Origin: Gammaproteobacteria bacterium
GTDB taxonomy: Bacteria > Pseudomonadota > Gammaproteobacteria > Thiohalospirales > Thiohalospiraceae
Direction: 5' to 3'
Length of the DNA: 64,000 bases
Assembly (NCBI GenBank): GCA_015491735.1
Contig: WFVH01000022.1
Coordinates: 1-64,000, forward strand
The notes under the pieces are model-generated. The model had not been told where the DNA came from. It was given only the letters and a program-made list of their open reading frames with translations, and searched no databases. Shown piece by piece: positions 13,996 through 33,451 of the stretch. A program made the translations under genes and the position numbers. Positions within the stretch are counted from its first letter, which is position 1. The number at the start of each line of letters is the position of its first letter.

Positions 13996-14100
13996 GGTTC
14001 CCGGAGGCGGTGAATACGCAAATCTTGCCGTATATCCGCCAAGAATCAACCAGCAACTATCCGGCCTGATAGTGATCGGCCGGATGGAATGGAGAAAAAA

Positions 14101-14999: not shown

Positions 15000-15020
15000 G
15001 ATTTATGAGAGGTGATTGAG

Positions 15021-15400: not shown

Positions 15401-16816
15401 GTGGAAAATCTAACCCTGCCAGGCGCAGGTTCCGGGCTGGATATCAAGTCGCTGGTGAATCAACTGGTTGCGGCTGAACGTACACCGGCGGACAAGCGTC
15501 TTAACCAGCGAGAGGGAGAGATAAGAACGTTGCTGTCGGCATTTGGCCGGCTGAAGAGTTCCCTGTCCACTTTTGATGATGCGCTGGACAACTTGAAAAA
15601 CGGCGCGACTTTCAAGGACAGAAAAGCCTCGTCCAGCGATGAGAACATAGCGGCCGTCAGTGCCAGCAACGGAGCCTCTCCCGCTTCTTACGCCCTCGAA
15701 ATAAGCAACATCGCACAAGCCCATAAACTGACGGCCGGCGGAGGGAGCTATGCGGGACAGACCGGCACCCTGACGCTGGAGCTGGGCCAGTATGACAGTG
15801 CCGGCAACAGCTTCACCGCCACGGAGAGCGTCACACTGGCCATCGACGGAAGCAACAACAGTATTCAAGGGATAAGAGATGCCATCAATGACGCAAATAT
15901 CGGTATCAGCGCCACGGTGATCAATGATGGCACCAATGACATTCTCAGCATTACGGCAGATGAAACCGGCACTACGAACACCATAAAGATATCGGTATCC
16001 GGAGATTCCGATGGTAGCAATACCGATAATACAGGATTGTCGGCATTTGCGTTCGACCCGGCTTCGTCTGGCCCTCGAAACGCAGCGGAAGTCTCTCGGG
16101 CGATTGATGCCGAATTTTCTATCGACGGTATTGCCATTACCAGCCCATCGAACAGTTTGACCACCACCGTCACCGGTTTGACAATCGATCTCTCTTCCGC
16201 CGGTTCCGTGACGCTCAAGGTCGAGCAGGATATAGATAGCGTCAAGGAGAAGATCCAATCCTTCGCCGATACCTACAATGAAGTGGTGGGAACGATACGG
16301 GAGTTGACCCGCTATGGCGGTGAAGGTGGTGAGCACGGCCCGCTTCTGTCTGACTCCGCTGTCTTTGGCATAGACGTGCGTATTCGCAGCATCATCGGGA
16401 ATACCAGCGCCAACGGCGGTGAGTTCAGCACCCTGATGGAGATAGGTTTCGCATCGGATCCTGAAACCGGACTCCTGAAACTGGATACGGCAAAACTTGA
16501 AAAAGCGCTGAAAGCGGACTTCGATGGTGTGGGTGATCTGCTCAGTGGCTATGCTGGCCAGCTGGACGACTACATCAAGACACAGCTGGACGATGGTGGC
16601 GTTCTCTCTGCAAGAACAGATGGCCTGGACAACCGCCTGGAGGACATAAGCGACCAGCGCGATGCCCTGGAGTTGCGCATGGAGTCGGTGCGTGCACGTT
16701 ACACCCGGCAGTTCAGCCGGCTGGACGGCCTGATCGCATCCCTCAACAGCACAGGTGCGTTCCTGTCTCAGCAGCTGGCGTCACTTCCCGGCGCCAGGAG
16801 CCTGAATGGGGGCTGA
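15401..16816 (+). CDS. fliD: Flagellar filament cap protein
   Basis: The product has 471 residues from GTG 15401, with GGAGG upstream. FliD forms the cap at the filament tip and folds exported flagellin into place. The N-terminal region (LPGAGSGLDIKSLVNQLVAAE) and C-terminal coiled region (RARYTRQFSRLDGLIASLNST, LSQQLASL) are conserved. The central domains include an Asp/Asn/Gly-rich section typical of the variable surface. It follows flaG as expected. Confidence 0.95.
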   Translation: MENLTLPGAGSGLDIKSLVNQLVAAERTPADKRLNQREGEIRTLLSAFGRLKSSLSTFDDALDNLKNGATFKDRKASSSDENIAAVSASNGASPASYALEISNIAQAHKLTAGGGSYAGQTGTLTLELGQYDSAGNSFTATESVTLAIDGSNNSIQGIRDAINDANIGISATVINDGTNDILSITADETGTTNTIKISVSGDSDGSNTDNTGLSAFAFDPASSGPRNAAEVSRAIDAEFSIDGIAITSPSNSLTTTVTGLTIDLSSAGSVTLKVEQDIDSVKEKIQSFADTYNEVVGTIRELTRYGGEGGEHGPLLSDSAVFGIDVRIRSIIGNTSANGGEFSTLMEIGFASDPETGLLKLDTAKLEKALKADFDGVGDLLSGYAGQLDDYIKTQLDDGGVLSARTDGLDNRLEDISDQRDALELRMESVRARYTRQFSRLDGLIASLNSTGAFLSQQLASLPGARSLNGG

Positions 16817-16917: not shown

Positions 16918-17358
16918 ATGAACAACAAAACTGCCATTCAACAATATACCCGGTCAATCAGGGAGGCCGATGTCGCCGCCGCCTCTCCCCATCGGCTTAT
17001 TCAGATGTTGCTCGAAGGGGCCTTGGAGAAAATCGCCATTGCAAAAGGTCATATGGAGCGCAGGGAGATTGCGCAAAAGGGCAAGGCGATTAGCTGGGCG
17101 ATCGATATCCTGGAAGGATTACGCATGAGCCTCGACCAGAATGCGGGTGGGGAACTGGCGCAAAACCTGGATTCTCTCTATGACTATATGGGCATTACAT
17201 TATTGGAGGCAAACAAGGAAAACAGCCTGGAGAAACTGAATGAAGTGAGCCGCCTTCTTGGAAGCATCAAGTCGGCGTGGGATGGTATCGCGGATGACCC
17301 GGCTGTTAGGGAAATGGGCGCAGGGGAGGTTACGATTGTATCCGCATCGGTTCGATAA
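16918..17358 (+). CDS. fliS: Flagellin export chaperone
   Basis: The product has 146 residues and is all-helical. Family phrases are present: SPHRLIQMLLEGALEKIA near the N-terminus, then GKAISWAIDILEGLRMSLD, and SLYDYMGITLLEAN. FliS binds the C-terminal part of flagellin in the cytoplasm and prevents polymerisation before export. It lies 101 bases after fliD with a possible promoter of its own. Confidence 0.95.
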   Translation: MNNKTAIQQYTRSIREADVAAASPHRLIQMLLEGALEKIAIAKGHMERREIAQKGKAISWAIDILEGLRMSLDQNAGGELAQNLDSLYDYMGITLLEANKENSLEKLNEVSRLLGSIKSAWDGIADDPAVREMGAGEVTIVSASVR

Positions 17359-17429: not shown

Positions 17430-17750
17430 GTGATGGTCGTGCTGTTCGATAACAATCTGAAAAAAATCGATCGTTTAACGGAAGATATTCTACGGCATGC
17501 AATAGAAAAGGAGTGGGATGAGGTATTTGAAAAAGAGAAAGACCGGCGCAAGCTGATTGAGCGGTTTTTCGATGCCGAATACAACGGGAAAGATGCAGAA
17601 ACGATAAAAAACACACTTGCCCGCATTGTCTCGATCGACAGGAAAATATCCTCCCTGGCCGAGCTGGAGAAATTGAATATTCTTGAAAAAATGAGAAACC
17701 TGTCTACCGGGCGGAACGCCGTTGACGCCTACACAAAAAACTCCTTCTGA
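17430..17750 (+). CDS. fliT: FliT-like flagellar chaperone
   Basis: The product has 106 residues from GTG 17430 or ATG 17433. It is a short helical protein with EKEWDEVFEKEKDRRKLIERFF, the pattern usual for FliT-type chaperones (W-D near the start, then R-x-x-L-x-x-x-F). The position after fliS agrees. FliT-like proteins bind FliD and in enterobacteria also restrain FlhDC. Sequence conservation in this family is low, so position carries much of the call. The downstream hairpin closes the transcript. Confidence 0.8.
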   Translation: MMVVLFDNNLKKIDRLTEDILRHAIEKEWDEVFEKEKDRRKLIERFFDAEYNGKDAETIKNTLARIVSIDRKISSLAELEKLNILEKMRNLSTGRNAVDAYTKNSF

Positions 17751-17816: not shown

Positions 17817-17845
17817 GCAGCCGCCTGGCGAGCGGTTGCTTTTCT
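17817..17845 (+). terminator. Terminator after fliT
   Basis: GCAGCCGC and GCGGTTGC form an 8-bp stem (one G-T pair) around CTGGCGA, followed by TTTTCT. It ends the fliD-S-T transcript before the DUF11 cluster. Confidence 0.65.
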
Positions 17846-17901: not shown

Positions 17902-17928
17902 TAAAGAAGTTTCCGCGACTGGCGATAC
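17902..17928 (+). promoter_or_regulatory. Sigma-28-like promoter upstream of the DUF11 surface-protein cluster
   Basis: TAAAGAAG, exactly 11 bases, then GGCGATAC (6 of 8 to GCCGATAA; the -35 keeps TAAAG). A start near 17935 would leave a 60-base leader before the ATG at 17995. It lies just after the fliT terminator and before five same-strand genes with small or no gaps. Confidence 0.5.
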
Positions 17929-17994: not shown

Positions 17995-18492
17995 ATGAAC
18001 AAGACAAGCAAATGGATTCGCCCGCTATGCATGATTCTGCTGGTGATTGCCGTTAATTTCCAGGCAAACGCAGGTGAAGGCGTCACATTGAAAGTGATGG
18101 TGGAGCAGGAGGTCGTCGTTGTCGATGACAACGGAAAAAAAGTGACCCGGCGTATCGAGGCAGACACCATCGTGCCAGGTGACGAGGTGATCTATACCAT
18201 TCACTATCTGAACAGGAGCAGCAAGCCCGCGGACAACGTATTCATAACCATTCCTGTCCCGGAACATACAACCTATCGCAGCGGGAGCGCCCGTGGCGGG
18301 GATACCGATATCACATTCTCTGTCGATGGCGGAAAGCGTTACGGCCGGGCGGAAGAGCTGTCGATTACACCGGAAAACGGTGTGGAACGGCCAGCCACCG
18401 CCTCTGACTATACCCATATCAAATGGAAATTCAGGGTGCCCCTGCCGCCGGGAGCCAGCGGCGCGGTCAGTTATCGCGCTGTGCTGAACTGA
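17995..18492 (+). CDS. Secreted single-domain DUF11-type protein
   Basis: The product has 165 residues. A signal peptide (MILLVIAVNFQANAG) is followed by one DUF11/conserved-repeat domain: ADTIVPGDEVIYTIHYLNRS, VFITIPVPEHTTYRSGSA, and a C-terminal strand GASGAVSYRAVL. DUF11 domains are immunoglobulin-like beta sandwiches found in cell-surface proteins. The small size suggests a subunit or accessory. It is first in the cluster and probably first behind the sigma-28-like promoter. Confidence 0.7.
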   Translation: MNKTSKWIRPLCMILLVIAVNFQANAGEGVTLKVMVEQEVVVVDDNGKKVTRRIEADTIVPGDEVIYTIHYLNRSSKPADNVFITIPVPEHTTYRSGSARGGDTDITFSVDGGKRYGRAEELSITPENGVERPATASDYTHIKWKFRVPLPPGASGAVSYRAVLN

Positions 18493-18520
18493 GCGTGATC
18501 GCCAAGGGGGGACGACCACA

Positions 18521-19651
18521 ATGAAAAACACAAAAAGATATTTTGTTCACGCCCTGGCCATGCTGGCCGGTTTGGTGTTGACCGCCGGGATGGCTTCCAA
18601 TGCATCGGCGGCCGGCACCGCTGCGGGAACCACCATCAGCAACTCGGCCACGGTCACCTATGATGTGGGCAGCGTTACGCAAACACCGATTACCAGCGCC
18701 GCTGCAACCTTTGTTGTGGATATCAAAGTCGACCTGACAGTGGCCGCCGTTGACGGGGCAACGGTCAAGGTTACGCCAGGCGCCAGCAACCAGGTGTTGG
18801 CGTTTACCGTGACCAATACGGGCAACTCTTTCCATGATTTCAGTCTGCGCCAGATCGCTCAAAATGGAGGAACGGGCGGATTTGGCGGCACGGATAATTT
18901 CGATGCCACTGTTGTTGGTATTTTTGTTGAAAGTGGCGCGACGGCTGGTTATCAGCCTGCCGAAGACACCGCCACCTTCATTGACGAACTGGCTCCCGAT
19001 ACCGCCAGAACCGTCTACATCGTGACCGATATTGCGCTGAGCCAGGCCAACGGTGATATCTCTTCTCACCACCTTGTCGCTACCGCAAGGCAAAATGGCA
19101 CCATTGGTGTTGAAGACCCCGCCATTGTGGAAGACAGCGGTACGCCGGATGGCAAGGACACGAGTCAGGTCGTGTTCGCCGATGGCGATGGTGATGGTGC
19201 GGGCAGTATCGATACGGCCAATAACGGTGAGCACTCCAGCCAGAGTGACTTCGAGGTGCAGTCAGCAACGTTGGCCGTTACCAAAACATCAGCAGTTATC
19301 AGTGATCCATTCAGCGCCACCAATCCGAAACGGATCCCCGGCGCGGTGGTGGAGTACACCCTGACCATCGATAACAGCGCCGGTTCAGCGGATGCGGAAA
19401 ATATTGTGGTGACCGATCTGCTGGATGTCACCAATCTGACCTTTCTGGACAGCGCCGCCTATTCGGGGAACGATATCGAACTCAGCATTGGCGGTGGCCC
19501 CGTTACCACCTACACGGGAACCGATGCGGATAGTGATGGCGCGGATTTTGGCCGCACCAGCGCAAACACGCTCACTGTCAATCCGGGCGGGGGCTTTACG
19601 GTGCCCGCCGGTCAGTCGGCAACGGTAAGGTTCCGGGTAACCATCAATTGA
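18521..19651 (+). CDS. Secreted protein with C-terminal DUF11 domain
   Basis: The product has 376 residues with a clear signal peptide (LAMLAGLVLTAGMASNASAA). The start of the mature chain (GTTISNSATVTYDVGSV) resembles a repeat found in the next gene (GTVIENTARADYSVSGI). A linker holds an Asp/Gly-rich calcium-binding-like run (ADGDGDGAGSID, about 225). The C-terminal 125 residues form a domain (KTSAVISDP, then NPKRIPGAVVEYTLTI, ending ATVRFRVTIN) that also terminates the proteins at 25832 and 28587. It probably lies on the surface or in the matrix. Confidence 0.7.
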   Translation: MKNTKRYFVHALAMLAGLVLTAGMASNASAAGTAAGTTISNSATVTYDVGSVTQTPITSAAATFVVDIKVDLTVAAVDGATVKVTPGASNQVLAFTVTNTGNSFHDFSLRQIAQNGGTGGFGGTDNFDATVVGIFVESGATAGYQPAEDTATFIDELAPDTARTVYIVTDIALSQANGDISSHHLVATARQNGTIGVEDPAIVEDSGTPDGKDTSQVVFADGDGDGAGSIDTANNGEHSSQSDFEVQSATLAVTKTSAVISDPFSATNPKRIPGAVVEYTLTIDNSAGSADAENIVVTDLLDVTNLTFLDSAAYSGNDIELSIGGGPVTTYTGTDADSDGADFGRTSANTLTVNPGGGFTVPAGQSATVRFRVTIN

Positions 19652-19655
19652 TGAA

Positions 19656-22600
19656 ATGCCGGTACCGCTGCTCAGGGAGATCCGGTTCTGCGCCGCCGAC
19701 CCGCCGGTCAGCGGCGCGGGTCTGTTGTTCACGCTGCTGCTGTTTTGTATTCCCGTCCTTGCGGTTACTCCCGGCACGGTAATTGAAAACACGGCCCGTG
19801 CCGACTATTCCGTTTCCGGCATTGCCGGACAGAGTGCCATCTCGAACACCGATAGTTTTACCGTGGAGGGAATGGGTGTCAACGACAGTGCCCGGCTGGA
19901 GGTGACGCCCGATACCGGCGCACTGTTTGCCGGCGACCCGGTCAACCTTGCTGTCGAGATAGGTAATACCGGTGACAACACGCTTGCCGGTGGCAGTCTG
20001 ATTTTCGCCGTACCGCCGGGTTCGGCCTTGAACGTCGGAGGTGTGGCGGTACCTGAATCGTCCCCCGGTATCTATCGTTATCCACTGGCCGATCTTCCGC
20101 CCTACCGGATCGCAGCGCTGCAGGTGGAGTTGACCCCGCCCGTCGACGCCTCCGCCAGCAGCACCCCTGTCAGGGTCGATTACCAGGCCAATGGCGCCAT
20201 CCGAGCCAGCACGGCGGCGGCGCTGCAACTGAAGGCCCGCACCCGGGCGAAGCTGGATCTGATGCAGTATGCGCCGGAAAGCGGCGTGGCGCCGGTAGTT
20301 ATCAATATCACCAGCCACCGCCTGGCTGACGGTGGCTTTGCCCCGATTCCCCCGCCACCGGTACCCGCCGGGGGCGGCGCGCTGGTTACCGATGCTCCGC
20401 TGCCGCTGTTCGCCGCCAGCGCTTTTCAGCACAACCAGATCCTGTTTCTGCGCCTGACCGATGCGGATCAGAACCGGGATGCCACGCTGAGGGAGTTCGT
20501 CGAGGTAAGATTTGCCGTTCCCGGCAACAGCGCTGAGCAGGAGACATTGCGGCTGATGGAGACCGCACCCGGCAGCGGCGTATTCAGCGGTTATGCCAGG
20601 CTCTCCAAAAGCGCAGCCCGGCCCCATGACGGGACAATAAATGTCATTGCCGGCGAGTCGCTGCAGGCCAGCTACACCGACTCCACCAGTCTCGCTGAAA
20701 CGGCCGAAGCGGTAGCGCTGGTGGATCCTTTTGGCCGCCTGTTCGATAGCAGCAGCGGCGCCCTGCTGGATGGCTATACTGTTCATTTGCTCGATGCCGC
20801 CACCGGCCAGCCGGCCACGGTCTACGGTGATGACGGAGTCAGCAGCTACCCCGCCACCCTGGTCAGCGGGGGCAGCGCTACCGACGGCAGCGGTACGGAG
20901 TATGTGTTCGGCCCTGGCGAGTATCGTTTCCCGTTGCTGGCGCCTGGCGACTACCGGTTGGTGGTGGTGCCGCCCGATGGCGCCCGTTACCGCTGGCCAT
21001 CCCAACAGCCGGACGGGCTGATGCAGGCGCTGCCGAATGCCCCCTTCGCGCTTGGTACCGGCTCGCGGGGTGAGGTATTTGCGCTCCGGACCGGGCCGCC
21101 GCTGAATCTGGATCTCCCCCTCGATGCCCTGGATACGCTGCTGTTTGTCCGCCGCAGTGCGGGCAAGGAGCAGGTGGCTCCCGGTGATCTGCTGCCGTTT
21201 CGGGTGGAGGTGGAGAACAGCATCGATGAGGTGATCAACGATGTGCAGCTAACGGACACGCTACCTCCCGGTTTCCGTTACCGCAGCGGCAGCGCCCGGG
21301 TGAATGATGCGCCCCTCGCCGATCCGCTCATCTCCGCCGATGGCCGCCAGCTCACTTTTTCTCTCGGCGAACTGCCCGCGGAGGAGCGTTTTGCCATCCG
21401 TTATACCACCACTGTGGGGAGCGTCCGCCCCGGCCGGGAGATCAGCCGCAGCCGCGCCAGTGGCAATGGCGGGGCGATCGTCTCCAACGAGTCCAGCATC
21501 ACCACCCGCATCGATGAAGAGCTGATGCGCAGCCGCGCAATCCTGATGGGGAGGGTGATCGTCGAGCCACCCGATGATGGCGGCGCAGGGTGGCAGGGCA
21601 AGGGGCTGGCCGGAATCCGGCTCTATCTGGAGGATGGCAGCTATGCCGTTACCGATGAGCAGGGCCGATACCACTTCGCCGGAGTGATGCCGGGCAGCCA
21701 TGTGCTGCAGCTGGATCGGGATACCCTGCCGGCGCAGTACGAGGTGATTCTGACAGAGAACAATAGCCGTTTTGCCGGCCGCCCCTGGTCCCGCTTTGTA
21801 GAGCTGCAGGGCGGAGCGCTGTGGCGCGCCGACTTCCATGTTGGCCTGAAACAGCGCGAGCAGGGCAGTGTACGGCTGACCCTGAGCAATGATCCGGAGA
21901 TCAAGGATGGGGTGGTGCAGTATCGTCTCGAGCTGGGGGGGCAGGCAGCGGCGTTGAGCAATCTGCGTCTGATGGTGATGCTGCCGGAGGGGGCCAGCTA
22001 TCTGCCGGACAGCGCTGATGGTGCCGCGGAACCCGCAGTGGATGGCAACGTCTTGACCTGGCGTCTGCCTGACCCCCCGGCGCAGTGGCGGAAGCGGCTG
22101 GTCTTCAAGGCGCGCATAACCGGGCTGCGGCCGGGCAGGGCGGTAAGCACCCGGGCGATGCTGCTGTTCGACACGCCGCAGAAAAAGGGGCGGCGCAGCG
22201 CCATTGCCAAGCACTGGCTCACGCCGCCACGGCCGGTGGAGGTGGCGCGCAAACTGATCAAGTTCTCACTGCGCCTGGGTTTCGACACCATGAGTACCGA
22301 ACTGGGCGCGGATGATCGTGCCATGCTGGATATCCTGATAGAACGGATGCGCAACAAGCGCAACATAACGCTCACCGTGGTGGGTCACAGCGACAACCGC
22401 CCTATCCGCAGCGCTGCCGGCCGGAAACGCTTCGGTGACAACTACCGCCTGTCGCGCGAGCGGGCCGCTGCCGTGGCGCGCTACATCATGGAAAAACTGG
22501 ACATGAGCAACCTGCCGGTCAGTATCCTCGGCCGGGGGCCGGATGATCCGGTCGCCAGCAACGAGAGTGCCAGCGGCCGGGCGGCAAACCGGCGGGTGGA

Positions 22601-25600
22601 TCTCTACATCCAGGCGGATGAAGTCATCGAGTCGATGCGTATGGAACAGCCACAGAGTGCATCGATTCTGGAGAAGATCGTTGCCGCCGTTACCCTCTCC
22701 GATACCACCGAAGCGCCGCCTGCGAAGGAGAAACGGCCACTGTTCGACGAAGCCTGGCTGCAGGGCGCCGCGCCCGGCCTGGAGTGGTTGTCCCCGGCGG
22801 AAGATGCACTGCCTGCGATCCCCAGCGTGTCCATCGCTATCAAGCATGGCTATGACGAGCGGGTTGAACTGTCGCTCAACGGTGATCCGGTGCCGGCGGT
22901 CAATTTCGAAGGAACCAGCAAGAACCGGCGTGGCACAGTGGCGGTGAGTAGCTGGCGGGGGGTGGATCTGGCCGCCGAGGACAACTGGTTCGAGGCGGTG
23001 ATCTATGATGCCAGCGGCCGCGAAACCGGCCGTCTGGAGCGCAATATCCACTTTTCCGGTCCGCCGGTGCGGGGAGAGTTGGTGCCGTCCCGATCGACGC
23101 TGATTGCCGACGGTGTGACCACGCCGGTGATCACCGTACGGCTGTTCGACCGGCAGGGTTATCCGATACGCGAGGGTGGTATCGGCGAGTACCGCATCGG
23201 CGCGCCCTATCAAGCAGCGCGGAGGGCCGACATCCAGAGCGCCACGCTGCCAGGCGCTCCGGCGCAGCGGCTCTACTACCGGGCGGGCAAGAATGGCGAG
23301 GTGCGTATCCGTCTGCAGCCCACCACCGAGACTGGGGAAGTGCGCATCGAGCTGCCGTTCGTGGGGGGTGAACAGGGGGTGTTCAGGACTAACCTGCAGG
23401 CCAGGCCGCGCGACTGGATTCTGGTAGGCATAGCCGAGGGAACGGTGGGCTACAACACCCTGGATGGTCACGGTGAACCGCTGCCGGACAGCCGCGGGGA
23501 GGATCTCTATCACCAGGGGCGGCTGGCCTTTTTCGCCAAGGGACGCATCAAGGGCAAATGGTTGCTCACCATGGCCTATGACAGCGCCAAACGCAGGCCT
23601 GAACCGCGCCTGTTCGGCACCATCGAACCGGACGCCTACTACACTATCTACGGCGACGCCAGCCGCCAGGGTTACGAAGCCGCCAGCCGCGAAAAACTCT
23701 ATCTGAAGCTGGAACGGGACGGTTTTTACGCCCTGTTCGGCGACTACGACACCCTCCTCTCCAACAGCAAGCTTTCCCGCTACACCCGCAGCTTGACCGG
23801 CTTCAAGGCGCGCTATCACGCCCAGGCGTACGACATTGTTCTGTTCGGCAGCGACTCCAGCCAGGCTTTCGTGCGTGACGAGATTCGCGGCCAGGGCAGC
23901 ACCGGTCCTTACCGCCTGTCGCGCAGCGATATCGTGAGAAACTCCGAGCAGATCACCATTGAGGTGCGGGATCGCTTCCAGAGCGAGCGGATCGTGGAGC
24001 GCCGCTCGCTGACCCGTTTCGTGGACTACGATATTGACTACGACAGCGGCGTGCTCAATCTGCGCGAGCCGGTATTCAGCGTCGATGCTGCACTCAACCC
24101 CATCTTCATCGTCGCCCGGTTTGAGTCACTGGATCCGGGCGACAGCACCCTGACCTGGGGCGGCCGCGCGGAGCTGGCCGCGAACCGGCGCAACACTGTC
24201 GGCATCACCCATGTCGATGAAGGGGTGGTTGGCGGCACGTCGCAGCTCAGCGGGATCGATGTCGAGCACCGCTTCAGTGATAGCACCCGGCTGCACATGG
24301 AGCTGGCGCAGACCCGCCGCCAGGACAACAGCGGCAGCCGTGGCGCCAACGCCTGGCTGGCTGAGATAAAGCACCGCGCCAACCGCTGGGATGCCCGCGC
24401 CTGGTTGCGCCATGACGACGAGGAGTTCGGGCTGAAACAGCGTAACCGGGCTGAGAGTGGCACCCGCAAGATCGGAGCCGAGGGCGCTTACCGCATCGGT
24501 AACGGAGTTACCCTGAAAGGCAAGGCCTACCGCAACAGCAACCTGGTCACCGGTGCGGAGCGTGATCTGGCCGAGCTGCGCAGTGAACTGCTGAAAAACA
24601 GCACGACACTCAAGCTGGGCGCGCGTTCGGTGCGAGACATCCGGGCGGACGGCGACCGGCAGGCCTCCGACCAGTTGTTGACCGGCATCAGCCACCGTAC
24701 CCTCGGCAAGCGGATCAACCTCCGCCTCGACAACGACTACTCACTGAACGGTGCACAGAGTATCGACTTTCCCAACCGCACCCGTCTCGGTGTTGATTAC
24801 CTGGTGGCCACCGCCACCACCCTGTTTGCCGAGCAGGAGTGGACCGACGGCGCCCTGCGTCAAACCACTCACACCCGGTTGGGGGTCAAGTCCAGCCCCT
24901 GGAGTGGTTCGGAAGCGTTCACCACCCTCAAGCAGACCCGGCAGGACGGCGCCACCGCCACCACCGCCAATGTAGGGCTGCGCCAGAAGTGGAGGCTGAA
25001 CAAACAGTGGAGCCTCGATGCCGGGGCGGAGCAGGCCCGGGTGATCAGCGGCAAATCAGCCGATCCACTCAATCCGAATGTTCCCTTCGCCAGGGGTGCA
25101 GGCGAAGACTTCAATGCGGCCTCCCTCGGCCTGACCTATACGCCGGGCAACTGGTTGTGGAACGGCCGGGTGGAGAAGCGTGATTCCGACAAGGAGGATC
25201 GCTGGACTCTGGCCACCTCCGCCCAGACCACCTCACGCACCGATCTGAGTCTGCTCGCCTCGCTCCGTCTGCAGCAGAATTTCGCTGCAACGGGCCAGGA
25301 AAAGAGCAACGAAAAACTGCATCTGGCGCTGGCCTGGCGGCCCGGTGACACCCCTTGGCTGGTGCTGAACCGCCTGGAGCTGATCAACGAACAGAGTCGC
25401 GGTAATCTCGACAACACCAGCAAGCGGATCATCAACAACCTCAACAGCTACTACCGGGCCACCGAGCGGCTGCAGCTGGGGTTCCAGTACGGCGCAAAGT
25501 ATCTGATTGAAACCATCGACGGCAACGACTATCGTGGCCGCGCCGATCTGCTGGGGCTGGAGAGCCGCTACGACATCAATCCCCGCTGGGACATCGGCCT

Positions 25601-25835
25601 GCACGGCAGTCTGCTGCAGGTGGCGGATGCCCGCCAGTACGACTACAGCAGCGGGGCTTCAGTGGGGCATGTGCTTGCCGATAATATCTGGCTGAGTCTG
25701 GGATACAATTTCAACGGATTTCACGACGAGGATTTTTCCCGCAGCCGTTATACCATGGAGGGGCCGTTTCTCAAGTTCCGGATGAAATTCGATCAGCAGT
25801 CTGTGAAGGATCTGGTCAGGTGGGCCGGGCGATGA
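19656..25835 (+). CDS. Giant multidomain outer-membrane protein: DUF11, OmpA-like, Ig-like and C-terminal beta barrel
   Basis: The product has 2059 residues, signal peptide about 20-36 (GLLFTLLLFCIPVLA). Regions in order: conserved-repeat N-domain; a DUF11 domain about 490-620 (APGDLLPFRVEVEN, TLPPGFRYRSGSARVN); a Cna-B/SdrD-like domain about 648-700 (YAVTDEQGRYHFAGVMPGSH); a second DUF11-like region about 740-840; an OmpA-like peptidoglycan-binding domain about 862-988 (VVGHSDNRPI, NYRLSRERAAAVARYI, NRRVDLYIQ); a Big_1-like Ig domain about 1140-1250 (STLIADGVTTPVITVRLFD); then about 800 residues of alternating beta-strand pattern with many aromatic girdle residues, read as an outer-membrane barrel. 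The last residues (DLVRWAGR) lack the usual terminal phenylalanine. The barrel may hold the complex in the outer membrane while the OmpA domain grips the wall. It overlaps the next gene by 4 bases. Confidence 0.72.
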   Translation: MPVPLLREIRFCAADPPVSGAGLLFTLLLFCIPVLAVTPGTVIENTARADYSVSGIAGQSAISNTDSFTVEGMGVNDSARLEVTPDTGALFAGDPVNLAVEIGNTGDNTLAGGSLIFAVPPGSALNVGGVAVPESSPGIYRYPLADLPPYRIAALQVELTPPVDASASSTPVRVDYQANGAIRASTAAALQLKARTRAKLDLMQYAPESGVAPVVINITSHRLADGGFAPIPPPPVPAGGGALVTDAPLPLFAASAFQHNQILFLRLTDADQNRDATLREFVEVRFAVPGNSAEQETLRLMETAPGSGVFSGYARLSKSAARPHDGTINVIAGESLQASYTDSTSLAETAEAVALVDPFGRLFDSSSGALLDGYTVHLLDAATGQPATVYGDDGVSSYPATLVSGGSATDGSGTEYVFGPGEYRFPLLAPGDYRLVVVPPDGARYRWPSQQPDGLMQALPNAPFALGTGSRGEVFALRTGPPLNLDLPLDALDTLLFVRRSAGKEQVAPGDLLPFRVEVENSIDEVINDVQLTDTLPPGFRYRSGSARVNDAPLADPLISADGRQLTFSLGELPAEERFAIRYTTTVGSVRPGREISRSRASGNGGAIVSNESSITTRIDEELMRSRAILMGRVIVEPPDDGGAGWQGKGLAGIRLYLEDGSYAVTDEQGRYHFAGVMPGSHVLQLDRDTLPAQYEVILTENNSRFAGRPWSRFVELQGGALWRADFHVGLKQREQGSVRLTLSNDPEIKDGVVQYRLELGGQAAALSNLRLMVMLPEGASYLPDSADGAAEPAVDGNVLTWRLPDPPAQWRKRLVFKARITGLRPGRAVSTRAMLLFDTPQKKGRRSAIAKHWLTPPRPVEVARKLIKFSLRLGFDTMSTELGADDRAMLDILIERMRNKRNITLTVVGHSDNRPIRSAAGRKRFGDNYRLSRERAAAVARYIMEKLDMSNLPVSILGRGPDDPVASNESASGRAANRRVDLYIQADEVIESMRMEQPQSASILEKIVAAVTLSDTTEAPPAKEKRPLFDEAWLQGAAPGLEWLSPAEDALPAIPSVSIAIKHGYDERVELSLNGDPVPAVNFEGTSKNRRGTVAVSSWRGVDLAAEDNWFEAVIYDASGRETGRLERNIHFSGPPVRGELVPSRSTLIADGVTTPVITVRLFDRQGYPIREGGIGEYRIGAPYQAARRADIQSATLPGAPAQRLYYRAGKNGEVRIRLQPTTETGEVRIELPFVGGEQGVFRTNLQARPRDWILVGIAEGTVGYNTLDGHGEPLPDSRGEDLYHQGRLAFFAKGRIKGKWLLTMAYDSAKRRPEPRLFGTIEPDAYYTIYGDASRQGYEAASREKLYLKLERDGFYALFGDYDTLLSNSKLSRYTRSLTGFKARYHAQAYDIVLFGSDSSQAFVRDEIRGQGSTGPYRLSRSDIVRNSEQITIEVRDRFQSERIVERRSLTRFVDYDIDYDSGVLNLREPVFSVDAALNPIFIVARFESLDPGDSTLTWGGRAELAANRRNTVGITHVDEGVVGGTSQLSGIDVEHRFSDSTRLHMELAQTRRQDNSGSRGANAWLAEIKHRANRWDARAWLRHDDEEFGLKQRNRAESGTRKIGAEGAYRIGNGVTLKGKAYRNSNLVTGAERDLAELRSELLKNSTTLKLGARSVRDIRADGDRQASDQLLTGISHRTLGKRINLRLDNDYSLNGAQSIDFPNRTRLGVDYLVATATTLFAEQEWTDGALRQTTHTRLGVKSSPWSGSEAFTTLKQTRQDGATATTANVGLRQKWRLNKQWSLDAGAEQARVISGKSADPLNPNVPFARGAGEDFNAASLGLTYTPGNWLWNGRVEKRDSDKEDRWTLATSAQTTSRTDLSLLASLRLQQNFAATGQEKSNEKLHLALAWRPGDTPWLVLNRLELINEQSRGNLDNTSKRIINNLNSYYRATERLQLGFQYGAKYLIETIDGNDYRGRADLLGLESRYDINPRWDIGLHGSLLQVADARQYDYSSGASVGHVLADNIWLSLGYNFNGFHDEDFSRSRYTMEGPFLKFRMKFDQQSVKDLVRWAGR

Positions 25836-28369
25836 ATGCGACATATATTGTCGCCGGGTTAATAATAAACGCCCTGCGTCCAAGGGCGCTGCTGGGGGTG
25901 GCGGCCATACTGATTGGTATACTGGTCGTACAAAAAGAGGCGTCAGCGGCAATTCTGGTATTACACCCTTCCGGAGCTTTTCCTGGAGATACCGCTGTGT
26001 ACGACCCGGATGCGGTAACCGCGCTGGATAGCAACGACGGGGATGACACCATGGGAGAGCTGGACAGTTCGGGAGGGAAGTTTTATCTGGAGCTGGACGA
26101 TCCGGCCGCGAGTGGCACAATCAATTCGGTGCAGGTAAAGATCGTAGTCAGGTATTCGGGAACCGGCAATACCATGCAATTCAAAATTGGTGTCGGAACC
26201 GGGGGAACCTTTTATCTAAGCCCGACGATTACCCACTCCACAGATGGTTATGCCGAGTATGGTGGTGATATCTATACCACCAATCCCCAAACCAATGCGC
26301 CATGGACATGGGCAGATATCGCTAGCCTGGTGGCGGCTGTCGACTATGGGGTGGATTGCTGCCGCATGTATATCACCGAATTGTATGCGGAGATCGATTA
26401 TACGCCGGGCACTGCCATTACCCTTTCCGGAGTCCTTTTCAGTGATGAAGGGATCACCCCGGTGTCCGGGCAGACGGTGCGCTTGGTAGTAGAGGGAAAT
26501 AGCGTGGGAACAGACATTACCGACCTCGGTGGAAACTACTCGATTTCCGCTGTGATCAATCCCACCTACAATATCTGGTATATCCCCTTGCTGGTCTATG
26601 TCGATGACGGCGTTGTGGATGCCACTACCGTCACGACCATGGACTCGACGGTAAATGCCGGCGCCATCCCTGATCTTCACCTCTATGCTGATCATCTCAT
26701 TACCCGCCAGGACGCCAGTAGCGCACCACTGGATACCGGCGACATGAATGCTGCAAAAGGCTCTTATGCCGATACGGATATCCTTTATTCGATATCGTGG
26801 CCTGATACCACAGTGACCGGCGCAAATACCGAACTTTACATTCCCGGTGGTCATGGTTTTACCCCGTTTGGCAACATAGCCACACCCCATCTGAAGAGCA
26901 ACGGTACGCTGAATGCCGGCGGCAACACTTTCACCGTCAGCGGCAATTGGGAACACGCCAGCGGCACATTCAATTCCGGTACCAGCCTGGTCGATTTGAC
27001 CGGCAGCGGGTCCGTTACCGTGAACGATGCCTCTTGGTGGGAGCACCCGTTCTACAATCTGAGCGCTGCGGCCGCGGGGCAGACGACCACCATACCGGCA
27101 ACCCGGGGTATTGCCGTAGAGAATACTCTCGTACTGAACAGTGGGGTCCTCACGGGAGGCGATGTGCTCCTCAACAAATCAAGCGGCACTCCATTGATCA
27201 CCAATGCCACCCTTGACAACGGGGATTTTATGTACAGCACGCAGGCCGCTGGCACCGTCTACGTTGCTGCTGCGGACTATCCGGCGGGACTGCGCGTTGC
27301 TGGTTGGGGCAACGGCGCAACCAGTCGTTTTGAGCTGGCCGGGGATATAACCTGCGGGTCACTCCAGGTGGCGGGCACAGACAGTGGTTCGATTACCGTT
27401 CTCGACACATCGGCAAACAGCTACTCAATCGGTTGCTCCGGTCTGGAGGTTGGTGCCAGTTGGAACTCTTCCATATACAACAGGCTGGTTCTTAACAACT
27501 CCTTGGTGGATATCAATGGCCCGGTATCGATAGTTCCTTCTGATGCCGGTGGCGCCAACGAGATCGATGCGGGCGGGGCAACCATTAATGTTGGCGGGAA
27601 CTGGAGCAACCGTGACAGCTTTGTGGCGGGCACCTCCACAGTAGTTCTGGATGGTGCCGGCCAAACCTTGAGCGGCTCCACGGCATTCCATAACTTGACC
27701 AAAACCGTAACCGGCAGCGATACCCTGACCTTTACCGCCGGTACAACCCAGCACATTACCGGCAGTGTGGTTCTCAGCAGCGCCAGCGGCCAGCTACTCA
27801 ATCTCCGCTCCAGCACACCCGGTATACGATGGAATTTCAACCTGGCCGCAGGCGCCACCAAAGCTATCTCCCATGTGGACGTTCAGGACTCCGACGCTTC
27901 CGGTTCGGATGTCAGTCAGCTTGAGATCAACCCTGCTTACTCGGTCGACAGCGCCAACAACGTGAGCTGGTTCGGGAATGCCAATATCAGTGTGGTAAAG
28001 AGCAGTGTGGTTCTTTCCGATCCGGTCAGTGGTGCACTCAATCCCAAGCGTATCCCGGGTGCTGTGGTGGAGTACACGATTGTGGTTACCAATACAGCCG
28101 GAGCGCAGGCAACGAATATCAGGCTTGCAGATGATTTGAGTGCGGAACAGAGCCGGATCGCTTTTGTTCCGGATGGGTATGCGCCGCTTAAGGGAATACA
28201 ACTAATCTCGCCAAATATCAATGGTGGTGTGGCGCTGAATCTGACTAATGCCGATGACTCGGATCAGGGAGATTACGGGATTACCGCAGCCAATACCATA
28301 ACGGTGGGCGGGATGATTCTTGATGCCGGAGAGCAGGCCACGATCAAGTTCAAGGTTATGATCCAATAA
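25832..28369 (+). CDS. Large secreted beta-rich protein with C-terminal DUF11 domain (paralog 1)
   Basis: ATG 25832 overlaps the preceding stop (ATGA); the GTG at 25820 is less likely. The product has 845 residues. The first 13 codons are contributed by a mobile-repeat end, and the signal peptide follows (LLGVAAILIGILVVQ, then ASA). Next come a unique N-terminal domain (about 30-190), a carboxypeptidase-regulatory-like module (LSGVLFSDEGITPVSGQTV), a long Gly/Thr/Ser-rich repeat region suggesting a beta helix (TFNSGTSLVDLTGSGSV, STVVLDGAGQTLSG), the phrase HVDVQDSDASGSDVSQLE, and the DUF11 C-terminus (NPKRIPGAVVEYTIVV to ATIKFKVMIQ). The second half is closely similar to the next gene. Likely a surface adhesin or fibre. 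Confidence 0.7.
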   Translation: MNATYIVAGLIINALRPRALLGVAAILIGILVVQKEASAAILVLHPSGAFPGDTAVYDPDAVTALDSNDGDDTMGELDSSGGKFYLELDDPAASGTINSVQVKIVVRYSGTGNTMQFKIGVGTGGTFYLSPTITHSTDGYAEYGGDIYTTNPQTNAPWTWADIASLVAAVDYGVDCCRMYITELYAEIDYTPGTAITLSGVLFSDEGITPVSGQTVRLVVEGNSVGTDITDLGGNYSISAVINPTYNIWYIPLLVYVDDGVVDATTVTTMDSTVNAGAIPDLHLYADHLITRQDASSAPLDTGDMNAAKGSYADTDILYSISWPDTTVTGANTELYIPGGHGFTPFGNIATPHLKSNGTLNAGGNTFTVSGNWEHASGTFNSGTSLVDLTGSGSVTVNDASWWEHPFYNLSAAAAGQTTTIPATRGIAVENTLVLNSGVLTGGDVLLNKSSGTPLITNATLDNGDFMYSTQAAGTVYVAAADYPAGLRVAGWGNGATSRFELAGDITCGSLQVAGTDSGSITVLDTSANSYSIGCSGLEVGASWNSSIYNRLVLNNSLVDINGPVSIVPSDAGGANEIDAGGATINVGGNWSNRDSFVAGTSTVVLDGAGQTLSGSTAFHNLTKTVTGSDTLTFTAGTTQHITGSVVLSSASGQLLNLRSSTPGIRWNFNLAAGATKAISHVDVQDSDASGSDVSQLEINPAYSVDSANNVSWFGNANISVVKSSVVLSDPVSGALNPKRIPGAVVEYTIVVTNTAGAQATNIRLADDLSAEQSRIAFVPDGYAPLKGIQLISPNINGGVALNLTNADDSDQGDYGITAANTITVGGMILDAGEQATIKFKVMIQ
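25838..25864 (+). repeat. Right-end fragment of the TTAACCCGGCC repeat family
   Basis: ATATATTGTCGCCGGGTTAATA matches the right ends at 45871 and 10100. No left end is found upstream, where the reading frame of the giant protein is intact. The fragment lies in the first codons of the next gene and encodes TYIVAGLI. Confidence 0.6.
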
Positions 28370-28586
28370 AAACAAGGCAAATTATTCTTGACGGGTATTC
28401 ACTGTGTACACGAGATGCAAGGGGGTTGGGTATCCCAACGCTCCCTTATACCGGCTATCTCTGGGCGCACATTCTACTTTTTCAGGAGCGAAAAGCCGCA
28501 ACGCGGTGATTTACCCTTGATCCACAGGGCTTGGCAAGAACCGCAGGTTTTTTCGGGAAAGCAGAGGTCGTAGCAGGCAGAACAGG

Positions 28587-30656
28587 ATGAATAGTATTTG
28601 CGTTTATTTGTATATTGAATGGCAAGGCAGAGTCATGCCGCTCCTGTTTTCGTTGCTGATATTTCTGGCTATGCTGTCGGTCAGTTACGAGGCGGATGGC
28701 GCGATTTCGTACGTGCAAAGTACGGGTGCATTCAGCCAATACTTTGGTTTTGGCCCCAACTCTGTGGATATCCCTGTGACCGCCGATGTTGCCCCGGGGA
28801 ACAGCATCATTGTTACGTTGGTATGGGGCGCATGGGCGGCGGGTGAGACAACGATGTGCAGTGACACTCAAGGGAACAGCTATGCGGTTGATGTCAGCGA
28901 GTTCTATGGTGGTTCTGCTCTCTATACCGTTATCTGTTCTGCTCATAACGTAACGGCGCTTTCATCTACTGATACGATTACTGTTTCTTTTAGCTCCAAC
29001 ACCTATGGTGTGGCTGCAGTAGCGCATGAGTTTTCCGGACTGGCCTCCTCTTTTACCCTTGATCAAACGGCTTCTGCCAACGGGAATTCCGCTACCCCTT
29101 CCTCGGGAACCACGGCGGTAACGGCGCAGACTGATGAACTACTCATTGGCGCCATTGGCGTGAGTGGACCACCGGCGGATACCTTTACTCCCGGCGCCGG
29201 GTACAGCGCCTTGAGCTTTAATGGTTTCAGTGGTGTGTGGAACGGCACCATTCGTCCCGAATATAAAATTGTATCGGTAACTGGCGCCTATCAGGCAGAT
29301 GGTGCTTTAAATCCGTCACGTGGTTGGGGCGCCGCAATTGCCACCTACAAGGCCGCTGCCGCGACCACGGACATTACCGTCTCCGGCACTCTATACAGCG
29401 ATGAAGGAACCACCCCCCTCTCTGGCCAGACCGTTCGTCTGCTGGTGGAAGGAGCCAGCGCGGGAACCGATGTTACCGATGCCTCGGGAAACTACTCCGT
29501 CACCACTACGGTTGATGCCGGTGATCTCTATATTCCTGCGCTGGTCTATGTGGATGATGGCTCCGTCGACGGGACTACCGTCACGGTAATGGACGCGACA
29601 TATGCAACCAGCGTCAACGATCTGCATATCTATGCTGATCATCTCGTTTTGCGCCGGGAAGGCGGATGGACACCTTTGGAAAATGGGGATATCAGCGCCG
29701 CGGACGGATACTACGGTGACACGGATATCCTGTACTATGTTTTGGGCGCAGACCTTACGGTACTTGGCGCCAACACCGAACTGTATGTGGCTGCCGGCCA
29801 CATCTACGAACCTCGGGGTAATATCACTACCGCCCACATGAAAATTAATGGTACCCTAACTGCCGGCAGCAACATCTTCACCGTCAGCGGCGACTGGACC
29901 AACAACGGTACCTTCACCGCCGGCACTTCTACTGTGGTTCTCGGCGGCGCCGGGCAGCAGATCGCCGGTTCCACCGGCTTCCATCATTTCACCAAGACGG
30001 TTGCCAGCGCCGACACCCTGATCTTTTCCGCAGGCACCACCCAGACCATTACCGGCACCGCGACACTGAACGGCGCCAGCGGCCAACTGCTCAGCCTGCG
30101 CTCCGGCACCCCCGGCACCCGCTGGAATTTCAACCTTGCCACCGGGGCCAGCAAGGCCATCTCCTACGTGGATGTGCAGGATTCGGATGCCTCCGGATCG
30201 GATGTCAGCCAGTTGGAGTTGAATCCTGCTTACTCGGTCGACAGTGGCAACAATGTAAGCTGGTTCGGAAGCGCCAATATCACCGTGGCCAAGAGCAGCG
30301 CGGTTGTTTCGGATCCGATCAACGGTGCGGCCAGTCCAAAACGTATTCCCGGCGCCGTGATAGAGTATACAGTTCAAGTTACCAATACGGGCGGGGCGCA
30401 GGCGACCAACGTTACGATTACCGACGATCTGGGCGCCGAGTCGGCCCGGATGAGTTTCTTGCCGGATGGCTATGGTGTACCGGGAAAGGGTATTTTGGTG
30501 ACTGCGCCAAATATCAATGGCGGGGCGGCGCAACTCTTGACCAATGTCGCCGATACCGATCAGGCTGAATACAGTCTCTCCACAATAACTGTGAACGGCA
30601 TTACTCTCGATGCGGGTGAACAGGCGGTGGTCGCGTTTCGGGTTGTTGTCCGGTAG
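28587..30656 (+). CDS. Large secreted beta-rich protein with C-terminal DUF11 domain (paralog 2)
   Basis: The frame has 689 codons. ATG 28587 has AGGAT nearby; an in-frame ATG at 28635 gives a cleaner signal peptide (MPLLFSLLIFLAMLSVSY). The N-terminal domain (about 35-260) differs from paralog 1 and has phrases such as DVAPGNSIIVTLVWGAWAAG and AVAHEFSGL. From about 265 onward it parallels paralog 1: LSGQTVRLLVEG, GTSTVVLGGAGQQIAGS, YVDVQDSDASGSDVSQLE, and the DUF11 C-terminus (SPKRIPGAVIEYTVQV to AVVAFRVVVR). Tandem duplication with replacement of the N-terminus is the simplest history. The 217-base gap before it contains nothing I can assign. Confidence 0.7.
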   Translation: MNSICVYLYIEWQGRVMPLLFSLLIFLAMLSVSYEADGAISYVQSTGAFSQYFGFGPNSVDIPVTADVAPGNSIIVTLVWGAWAAGETTMCSDTQGNSYAVDVSEFYGGSALYTVICSAHNVTALSSTDTITVSFSSNTYGVAAVAHEFSGLASSFTLDQTASANGNSATPSSGTTAVTAQTDELLIGAIGVSGPPADTFTPGAGYSALSFNGFSGVWNGTIRPEYKIVSVTGAYQADGALNPSRGWGAAIATYKAAAATTDITVSGTLYSDEGTTPLSGQTVRLLVEGASAGTDVTDASGNYSVTTTVDAGDLYIPALVYVDDGSVDGTTVTVMDATYATSVNDLHIYADHLVLRREGGWTPLENGDISAADGYYGDTDILYYVLGADLTVLGANTELYVAAGHIYEPRGNITTAHMKINGTLTAGSNIFTVSGDWTNNGTFTAGTSTVVLGGAGQQIAGSTGFHHFTKTVASADTLIFSAGTTQTITGTATLNGASGQLLSLRSGTPGTRWNFNLATGASKAISYVDVQDSDASGSDVSQLELNPAYSVDSGNNVSWFGSANITVAKSSAVVSDPINGAASPKRIPGAVIEYTVQVTNTGGAQATNVTITDDLGAESARMSFLPDGYGVPGKGILVTAPNINGGAAQLLTNVADTDQAEYSLSTITVNGITLDAGEQAVVAFRVVVR

Positions 30657-30696: not shown

Positions 30697-31299
30697 ATGC
30701 AACAGAACGATACTCATGGAAAAAACTCATCGACAGCCCTCTGTTATCAGGGGGTTGTTCCTGTCGAGTGGGATTTGCTGAGCGGGTCCGTTGGCGCGGC
30801 GTTGAGCCAGCGGTATCAGCACGACAATATCATTCTGCTTCAGGGTCTGCTTGTGGTGGATGAGCAGCCGAAACCGGTTTTGGAACATGATGAAGAGCTG
30901 TCCTCGTTGGGGCAGGAACTGCAGCGTATCGACCACAAACTGAATCTGCTTCTTGAACTGTTGAGTCAGACATTGCGTAGCTGGCGCAGTTTGCCACTGC
31001 CGACACCGGTAAGACTAACCGTTGATGGCGTCGAGTGGGACTCGGACGAGCCATTGCCGGTGGGGGAACCGGTTCAGCTCAGGATCTACCTTAGCCCGGT
31101 ATTCCCCAATCCTTTTGTTGCTTGCGGCCAGGTGAGATCCTGCCGGCCGAAGGAGGGAGGGGGCAGCCACGTATCCGTCCGTTTTGACGAGCTTGGCGGG
31201 CAGGTTCGGGAGGTGCTGGAAAAAATGGTTTTTCGCCAGCACCGGCGCGAAGTGGCCCGCCGCCGGTCGGCGAAACCTGTTCAGCCGCAGGATAAGTGA
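30697..31299 (+). CDS. PilZ-domain-like protein next to flrA
   Basis: The product has about 200 residues from ATG 30697; in-frame starts at 30610 and 30670 are less likely. The N-terminal half is helical (EELSSLGQELQRIDHKLNLLLELL). The C-terminal half is a small beta barrel with RLTVDGVEWDSDEPLPVGEPVQL, VACGQVRSCRPK and HVSVRFDEL, matching PilZ-type proteins. The classical RxxxR and D/N-x-S-x-x-G c-di-GMP residues are not clear, so binding is unproven. Its place between a surface-protein operon and flrA, whose FleQ relatives bind c-di-GMP, suggests a role in the motile-to-attached switch. Confidence 0.6.
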   Translation: MQQNDTHGKNSSTALCYQGVVPVEWDLLSGSVGAALSQRYQHDNIILLQGLLVVDEQPKPVLEHDEELSSLGQELQRIDHKLNLLLELLSQTLRSWRSLPLPTPVRLTVDGVEWDSDEPLPVGEPVQLRIYLSPVFPNPFVACGQVRSCRPKEGGGSHVSVRFDELGGQVREVLEKMVFRQHRREVARRRSAKPVQPQDK

Positions 31300-31381: not shown

Positions 31382-31427
31382 GTTCCCTCATGAATTCTTG
31401 ACAGTTGATGCAGCAAAGGAGGGGGGA

Positions 31428-32852
31428 ATGCGCGCAACAACCGCCGTTTTGTTGATTGAGCAAGACACCAAACGCCAAAAAGAGCTCGTTACCATTTTGA
31501 GTTTCATGGGCTGGAAGCCTGTATTGGTAGCACCCGGAGAGGTTGAACAGACGTTATCCGCAATCGATGATCCGCCAGGTTTCATCATGGTTGGTCAGGC
31601 GCCGGCCGACGAAGCCCGTTTTACCATAGAACAGGTGCGTATCCGCTTTCCCGGCACGCCAGCCCTGCTGCTTCAACGGCAAGGAGCGTCAGCGGCTTTC
31701 GAGCCGCCTGCGGATGAACCACACTACAGCCCTCTGAGCTATCCTTTTCGCCAGACCGAGTTGACAGAGGCGCTGTATCAGGCAAAAAGCCCGGAAGAGC
31801 ACTCCTTTCAAGACACCAGCGATAGCGCCGTGGAGCTGTTTCGCAGTCTGGTTGGTAACAGCGTCAGTGTACGCAAGGTGCGGCAGCTCATTCAGCAGGT
31901 GGCTGACTCCAATGCCAATGTGCTGATTCTGGGTGAGTCCGGAACCGGCAAGGAGGTGGTTGCGCGGAATCTGCACTATCATTCGGCGCGCCGCGGGCCT
32001 TTTGTACCGGTCAACTGCGGAGCCATACCGGCGGATCTGCTGGAGAGTGAACTGTTCGGCCATGAAAAAGGCGCTTTTACCGGTGCAATCAGTGCGCGTC
32101 AGGGGCGATTCGAGATGGCGGCCGGCGGAACGCTGTTTCTTGACGAGATTGGCGACATGAGCTTGCCCATGCAGGTTAAACTGTTACGTGTCCTGCAGGA
32201 GCGAACCTTTGAGCGGGTTGGCAGCAACAAGAGCATTACTGCTAATGCACGCATCGTCGCTGCAACCCATCGCAGTCTGGAGGCGTTGATCAAGGAGGGA
32301 AAATTCCGGGAGGATCTCTACTACCGCCTGAACGTCTTTCCTATCGAAATGCCGCCATTGCGTGAGCGGAAGGAAGATATTCCAATGCTGATCGACGAGC
32401 TGATTACCCGTATCGAGCACGAAAAACGCTCCTCGGTCCGTTTTACCCAAAATGCCATCAACACGCTGTGCCGCTACCCGTGGCCGGGCAATGTACGGGA
32501 GCTTTCCAATATTATCGAGCGTCTGGCCATCATGTATCCTTGTGGTGTTGTCGATGTTGCCGATCTGCCGTCAAAATTTCACGCCGGTGCTGTTACCGCG
32601 CCGCCGGTCGAGGATGCTTCCATCACACCGCTCCCTGGTGGTTTGGATAATCTCCCCTTCGATGGATTCGATCTCAAGCAGCATCTGAACAATCTGGAAT
32701 ATGCCCTGATAAAACGGGCCATGGAGGAGTGTAATGGTATCGTGGCCCATGCCGCCAGACGCCTCAATCTTCGCCGCACCACACTTGTGGAGAAGCTGCG
32801 CAAGTACGGCTTGCAGCGGCGTGAACGGGAAGAGCGCACCGCTTCACTCTGA
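31428..32852 (+). CDS. flrA: Master flagellar regulator, sigma-54-dependent activator FlrA/FleQ
   Basis: The product has 474 residues; ATG 31428 follows AGGAGGGGGG. The N-terminal receiver-like FleQ domain (about 1-120) has glycine where the phosphorylated aspartate would be (FIMVGQAP). The AAA+ domain shows GESGTGKE (about 169), the sigma-54 contact loop GAFTGA, and Walker [12 protein letters not shown]. The C-terminal helix-turn-helix is FIS-like ([22 protein letters not shown]). It should turn on class II flagellar genes including flrBC. It lies before flrB as in Vibrio and Pseudomonas. Confidence 0.95.
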
Positions 32853-33197: not shown

Positions 33198-33451
33198 TAC
33201 CGCATTTGCCATGCGCCGATTCAGACAGGATACCCCGCATGTCCTGCCAAAGAGCCAGAAAAACAGTAACCCCTTAACCCGAGTCACCGCCTTCTGCCTG
33301 TCAATTCTGGCGCTTTTTTCATTGAAAACATGCCGGTTTTTTGGCGCTTCTCCGCCGGGGCCGGCCCTCTGCTTTGATAGGGTACAGATTGTTGTTGGAC
33401 GGCATGCTTCTTGCTCGACCATCTGCGGTATATTTTTCTTATTCGCTGATC

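Follow-up and report, generated by a model that had tools for sequence, protein, structure and literature searches.

In the chaperone-usher pili (type 1, P and archaic), incomplete Ig-like subunits are completed by the N-terminal extension of the next subunit, the tip subunits carry no donor, and an outer-membrane barrel lies at the base. The Sulfolobus archaeal threads (Saci_0406; PMC9715654) are likewise formed by head-to-tail donor-strand complementation, have an inter-subunit isopeptide bond, and are accompanied by a neighboring cap gene. DUF11 domains, recently renamed CLIPPER, occur in fibrillar adhesins, and their structure 9IFR contains an isopeptide bond made from a Lys, an Asp, and an Asn (PMC12617251). 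According to two reports on Vibrio cholerae (PMC6890996, PMC10865825), the surface adhesin FrhA stands under the flagellar hierarchy. Here, we describe five DUF11-type genes, A to E (17995–30656, + strand, as are all features of this stretch below unless noted), inserted in the flagellar locus of an uncultured marine gammaproteobacterium, and compare them with these systems. The window is the whole 64,000-nucleotide stretch analyzed, contig C22 of a 2.43-Mb, 101-contig genome.

Different from the chaperone-usher pili, the proteins of the insert have a DUF11 and not a pilin fold, the donor takes the form of a hairpin with a predicted reactive Asn, the base would be a giant barrel bearing both an OmpA domain and a donor hairpin, covalent links are predicted, and no PapD-like chaperone or usher was recognized among the genes of the insert. 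The archaeal thread is the closest described fiber; however, its N-terminal alpha-amine is joined to Asn57 two subunits away, whereas a DUF11-type Lys-Asp/Asn triad would be used here, and Sulfolobus has no outer membrane, nor does PMC9715654 mention DUF11. The CLIPPER domains belong to the same family and have the same three residues, but here the domain stops short at its last hairpin, and the three residues are found at the two ends of the chain. FrhA, described as a single giant RTX adhesin, is a protein of another kind. The one open-licence paper retrieved that deals with both donor strands and DUF11 does not describe such a fiber. The anatomy of the insert, its conservation, its insertion site, and its promoter motif were established by computation, and on balance we favor, with moderate confidence, the reading that it is a laterally acquired surface-fiber module under flagellar (FliA) control.

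Five Exported Proteins With DUF11-Type Repeats

The five open reading frames (ORFs) lie on the same strand between fliT (end 17750) and the PilZ–fleQ genes. Each of the translations opens with a signal peptide of the Sec type (judged by eye) and contains DUF11-type repeats, and SdrD_B/CarboxypepD_reg domains are also present in the set (Pfam/NCBIfam), confirming the five exported same-strand DUF11-type genes noticed in a preliminary description of this DNA. Gene A (26.5 bits) and gene E (30.2 bits) passed the PF01345 cut-off of 24.6 bits; B, C, and D scored above the TIGR01451 cut-off and below that of PF01345.

Gene A (17995–18492; 165 aa) encodes a signal peptide and a single DUF11 domain reaching to the C-terminus, without a donor hairpin and without the conserved isopeptide Lys/Asp pair. 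Gene B (18521–19651; 376 aa), the candidate rod subunit, is composed of a putative donor hairpin (residues 31–67, 18611–18721; AGTAAGTTISN41SATVTY..., with the invariant Asn41), an Ig-like domain, and a C-terminal incomplete DUF11 domain, the putative acceptor (residues 248–376, 19262–19648), that carries the invariant Lys255 and Asp299 and ends in ...AGQSATVRFRVTIN with no last hairpin. Gene C (19656–25835; 2059 aa) opens with a putative donor hairpin (residues 37–70, 19764–19865; VTPGTVIEN45TARADYSV...SNTDSFTV), followed by DUF11/SdrD_B modules, an OmpA domain, Ig-like domains, and a predicted giant barrel. Gene D (25820–28369; 849 aa) and its paralog, gene E (28587–30656; 689 aa), have a repetitive beta-rich N-terminal part, with SdrD_B in D, and share with B the C-terminal acceptor DUF11 domain (about residues 721–849 in D and 562–689 in E).

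An Incomplete DUF11 Fold and Its Missing Hairpin

To follow these genes in other genomes, contigs were scanned with a profile of the C alignment, which gave 322 relatives, and 78 loci were fetched; the relatives are mostly metagenome-assembled genomes (MAGs). A profile of our own was built from 76 canonical DUF11 domains of this class, because the PF01345 alignment of E, ungapped over variable loops, overran the true strand order. A phmmer search with the canonical DUF11 did not retrieve 9IFR, and the numbering of 9IFR was taken from PMC12617251. The canonical consensus reads ...LAVTK6T...VVLTD40TLP...AGASATLTITVTAT-TAGTLTN94TASVTS..., that is, after AGASATLTITVTAT it goes on with TAGTLTNTASVTS, whereas in B AGQSATVRFRVTIN is followed by the stop codon, just short of the Asn-bearing hairpin. 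Homologs of A, B, D, E, and a second B-like protein (B′) in the fetched loci mostly terminate at the same strand, before the last hairpin, and mostly lack a complete DUF11 domain with the Asn hairpin in one chain.

The missing hairpin was found at the mature N-termini, as AGTTISNSATVTY in B and TPGTVIENTARADY in C, and B, B′, and C all open with this last DUF11 hairpin. When N-termini were scored with a profile of the canonical hairpin, with 1552 unrelated ORFs as background, the median scores were 11.1 for B/B′, 9.0 for C, 4.0 for A, and 0.9 for the unrelated ORFs, and the 99th percentile of the latter was exceeded by 55 of 101 B/B′ and 19 of 64 C, but by none of 62 A sequences. No hairpin was detected by pattern search in ten D/E proteins. 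By sequence, one end of B thus has an Ig fold that is incomplete and the other a matching donor, as donor-strand complementation demands. In the AlphaFold2 model of a single B chain, the hairpin had a predicted local distance difference test score (pLDDT) of 91–97 and is probably docked. Sequence searches of the PDB with B and E gave no match, and a Foldseek search with B gave only generic two-Ig matches, among them the fused donor-strand pilins CfaB and SafD.

The Isopeptide Residues Are Split Between Chain Ends

The Lys/Asp/Asn triad is present in B and split between its two ends, Lys255 and Asp299 vs. Asn41. Conservation of the Lys and Asp in acceptors and of the Asn in donors was predicted before the alignment of 42 B sequences (A3) was made. 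This alignment contained 11 invariant columns out of 376, and Asn41, Lys255, and Asp299 were all among them (42/42 each); the chance of including all three is about 2e-5, with the relatedness of the sequences left uncorrected in this figure. In B′, Lys and Asp were each kept in 42/42 and Asn in 37/42 sequences, compared with 26/76, 45/76, and 46/76, respectively, in the canonical domains. The Asn of C was kept in 53 of 62 sequences by pattern and, by reading, also in most others with an intact start, and the ten D/E proteins all have both Lys and Asp. As a rule, A keeps neither Lys nor Asp; therefore, A could hold a hairpin, though not through a covalent link.

Gene C Encodes a Predicted Giant Outer-Membrane Barrel

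The OmpA-like domain of C (residues 876–979, 22281–22592; PF00691, E 2.9e-11) suggests peptidoglycan binding. An AlphaFold2 model of residues 1040–2059, built with 56 homologs (mean pLDDT 79), comprised a giant beta-barrel of roughly 36 long strands after Ig-like domains, the barrel spanning about residues 1255–2045 (23418–25790). The union of OmpA, Ig-like, and barrel parts in one protein, as claimed in the preliminary description, was borne out by Pfam and AlphaFold2. Large outer-membrane barrels (SlpA, MtrB, SprA, LptD, and ushers) made up nearly all of the best Foldseek matches, and the last 800 residues of C resemble SprA, Deinococcus SlpA, and the ushers in size and barrel character, with template-modeling (TM) scores below 0.3. 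The modeled C is thus clearly a large outer-membrane barrel by class, a TM-score in this range being too low for assignment to a family. A search of PDB sequences with the barrel profile matched only Ig-like domains of glycosidases. Two homologs of C lack the OmpA domain: in the alignment, query residue 729 is followed directly by 1033 in L118, and 892 by 1030 in L120.

A Conserved FliA Promoter Motif Precedes Gene A

A sigma-28 (FliA) promoter motif, TAAAGAAGTTTCCGCGACTGGCGATAC (17902–17928), is located upstream of A. When the fliT–A gaps of seven congeners were aligned, the sequence had drifted throughout except for a TAAAG-N16-CGATA block, the only conserved block in the gap; the motif was found upstream of A in 7/7 genomes, as the conserved block in six and as a separate copy elsewhere in the gap in the seventh (G001). 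No conserved sigma-54 promoter site was found in this gap alignment. The same motif precedes fliS and, with a spacer one base longer, fliC, and a 26-kb congener contig (L046) has just three FliA sites, before fliC, fliS, and A. Exact matches in the genome of the window numbered 16, vs. 5 for the reversed control, and the sites include those upstream of flgK, flgM, fliA, fliS, and two methyl-accepting chemotaxis-receptor genes (identified with NCBIfam). These results indicate that the cluster is likely under FliA control in this genus. In the module loci outside the genus, no FliA site was found upstream of A, the nearest similar site being in Thiomicrorhabdus (L052), 1.4 kb upstream and with a spacer one base shorter.

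A terminator-like hairpin followed by a T run (17817–17839) lies between fliT and the FliA motif; the evidence for it is weak, and shuffled sequence yields such sites at a similar rate. A FliA-like motif, TAAAG-N16-CGATA, also stands immediately before type IV pilin-like genes (G000:C5:42–67 and G000:C99:573–598), and a site identical to the former was found in another genome (G007:C154:6462–6487); it possibly reflects FliA control of pilin, or coincidence.

The Insert Occupies a Constant Site in the Flagellar Locus

The flank upstream of the insert comprises fliC (14089–14940), flaG (15012–15398), fliD (15401–16816), fliS (16918–17358), and fliT (17430–17750), and the flank downstream a PilZ (tPilZ) gene (30697–31299; PF16823, E 3.4e-13, and synteny), fleQ (31398–32852), fleS (33341–34624), and fleR (34695–36053). 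FliS, FliT, tPilZ, and FleQ were confirmed with Pfam; FliC, FlaG, FliD, FleS, FleR, FliF, and FliG were assigned from sequence and from the order conserved in relatives. The PilZ ORF opens at 30610, and its real start is probably at about 30697, where its orthologs begin.

Where the contigs of congeners (MAGs labeled Gammaproteobacteria or Chromatiales) are contiguous, the genes run fliC-flaG-fliD-fliS-fliT-A-B-C-(two D/E genes)-PilZ-fleQ-fleS-fleR, with D/E genes that differ in order and length. The identities among congeners were 74–83% for C, and the cluster is kept by all of them. The insertion site is identical in every congener with contigs spanning the fliT–fleQ interval, so the arrangement is more than chance. 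In contrast, fliD-fliS-(fliT)-PilZ-fleQ is uninterrupted in L128, from the sister genus, and in L129, L131, L132, and L133, from other families. Thus, PilZ is a regular gene of the flagellar locus, and it was in the ancestor of the genus that the DUF11 genes came to lie between it and fliT. The comparison of relatives that the preliminary description had proposed for this interval upheld the flagellar order it had recognized around the DUF11 genes, with the ORFs at the positions it gave, but not its inclusion of a PilZ-like gene in the cluster, this being an ordinary gene of the locus.

In two congeners (G007 and G002), the PilZ–fleQ half has been relocated beside pst/phoU genes; it adjoins pstC-pstA-pstB-phoU-like genes at 25–6036 of L137 and 4237–7956 of L139, respectively. 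Despite the split of the locus, the cluster remains with fliC–fliT in G007; the G002 contig ends before fliT. In a genome of another family (G033, L130), the fliT–PilZ gap is occupied by another insert, 7.7 kb long and made up of tetratricopeptide repeat (TPR)-type genes (4691–12440), indicating that this gap tolerates insertion and is an insertion hot spot; the three genes of that insert each open with TPR-like repeats. Elsewhere in the window, an 830-aa MptE-like (PF01973) protein with TPRs, conserved in congeners, is encoded beside fliC (11202–13694, – strand); PF01973 includes Maf-type motility-associated glycosyltransferases, and the protein is therefore probably a flagellin glycosyltransferase. 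A 240-aa ORF at 2691–3413 resembles a REP-associated (Y1-type) transposase.

The A-B-C Module Is Widespread and Not Itself Flagellar

In most fetched loci with enough flank, A and B are upstream of C, often with B′ before A, and this A-B-C module is present in several phyla; cultured carriers include Thalassolituus and Oceanobacter. The neighborhoods were screened with the proteins of the window, and matches to flagellin, FliD, FliS, or FliG were found in the flanks only within this genus. Comparison of two tables for 50 carrier genomes gave 22 without flagellin, 23 without FlhA, and 20 without both; MAG incompleteness may account for a few of them. Flagellar structural genes would be restricted to flagellated genomes, whereas the module occurs well beyond these, and it is not itself flagellar. 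The flagellum-linked surface structure of the preliminary description was retained as a surface structure tied to flagella within the genus, by the fixed site next to fliC–fliT and the FliA motif in 7/7 genomes, and its sheath or flagellar part was rejected on the non-flagellar carriers. Occurrence in many non-flagellated genomes was the very observation that the description had named as speaking against it, and for the module this is largely what was found.

The cluster was absent from the four genomes of other genera in the family that were tested, and in a tree of the barrel the closest companions of the genus were one deltaproteobacterial sequence and two from Thiomicrorhabdus (support 1.0), with the other gammaproteobacterial versions placed apart. 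Together, these results suggest that this genus acquired the module laterally. The Thiomicrorhabdus locus L052 has the same order, A-B-C-D. In Thiomicrorhabdus, the module comes after a gene for an RpoH-like sigma factor, an arrangement also seen in L070; in L052 (region 6431–7979), this gene is itself preceded by a small FliS-like one. In another gammaproteobacterium of the class, DUF11 domains fill an open frame of 11,777 codons (G172:C2:442582–459261).

Discussion

A fiber or adhesin is the best-supported nature of the structure, and polymerization, cross-linking, and adhesion are here inferred from the sequences. In the assembly that we propose, A, B, D, and E would be exported through Sec, and C would form the base, with its giant barrel in the outer membrane, its OmpA domain holding peptidoglycan, and its N-terminal hairpin, the putative missing last hairpin of the DUF11 fold, presented to the first subunit. 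Starting at C, B and B′, having both acceptor and donor, would be linked head to tail into the rod through donor-strand complementation, and D and E, having only an acceptor, would cap it as adhesive tips. Isopeptide bonds between the acceptor Lys and Asp and the Asn of the donor hairpin could lock the subunits together. A may be a non-covalent cap, or an assembly factor or helper guarding free hairpins, which is a guess. Transcription by FliA along with flagellin would let swimming cells make the fiber, probably for attachment.

Several observations weigh against this proposal. No chaperone or usher was recognized among the genes of the insert (Pfam/NCBIfam), and the C homologs L118 and L120 have no OmpA domain, so that a peptidoglycan anchor is not universal. 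The N-termini of D/E scored somewhat above background in the hairpin profile (3/10 over the threshold), without the pattern. As A has no covalent residues, at least one partner would be non-covalent. Docking of the hairpin, be it on its own or on another chain, is deduced from pLDDT and sequence, and FliA dependence is read from the promoter motif.

The single-chain model of B, with its confidently placed and probably docked hairpin, would suit B and B′ proteins that close on themselves, the N-terminal hairpin completing the DUF11 domain at the other end of the same molecule and an isopeptide bond perhaps forming within the chain, to give single stabilized adhesins and no polymer. However, known donor-strand subunits also self-complement in single-chain models (PMC9715654), and a division in which C has a hairpin without a terminal acceptor, and D/E an acceptor without the hairpin pattern, fits pairing between chains best; we consider self-closure unlikely. 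A further rival is a secretion device, in which C would be a protein translocon (usher-like, or similar to SprA of type 9) and the DUF11 domain at the C-terminus would serve as a sorting signal of proteins that are secreted and perhaps attached. Cargo-like proteins all ending in the same domain, and a very large barrel with SprA and FimD/PapC among its Foldseek matches, are in line with this, but at TM-scores below 0.3 all large barrels match about equally, and a sorting signal alone leaves the Asn-bearing missing hairpin at the starts of C and B unexplained, which makes a translocon quite unlikely.

The different insert in the fliT–PilZ gap of L130 raises the question of whether the cluster merely landed at a site that tolerates insertions, being neutral there and functionally unrelated to motility. 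Its retention by all congeners, the conservation of the FliA motif in a diverging spacer, and its stay with fliC–fliT after the split of the G007 locus render this very unlikely. Least probable is the reading that the cluster contributes physically to the flagellum, for instance as a sheath or as a coat on the filament: the insert does adjoin fliC–fliT and has a FliA promoter motif, but the PilZ gene is not of the module, and the module occurs in many genomes away from flagellar genes, including the 20 of 50 carriers with neither flagellin nor FlhA.

Beyond the locus itself, the surface-fiber reading would extend, tentatively and with slightly less than even confidence, to a widespread Gram-negative fiber class, a DUF11 donor-hairpin polymer with autocatalytic inter-subunit Lys-Asn bonds and a giant, peptidoglycan-anchored barrel as its base, controlled by FliA in this genus. 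If true, it would explain the role of many "DUF11 plus OmpA" proteins across several phyla, and would add to Gram-negative biology a covalently locked donor-strand fiber that uses no sortase, no known chaperone, and no known usher. It would also be a natural split-isopeptide polymer, that is, a split-domain tag and catcher. In this genus, the flagellar regulon would have taken over a foreign adhesion system and thereby linked swimming to attachment. Gene sets of this kind are present, so far overlooked, in hundreds of other bacteria.

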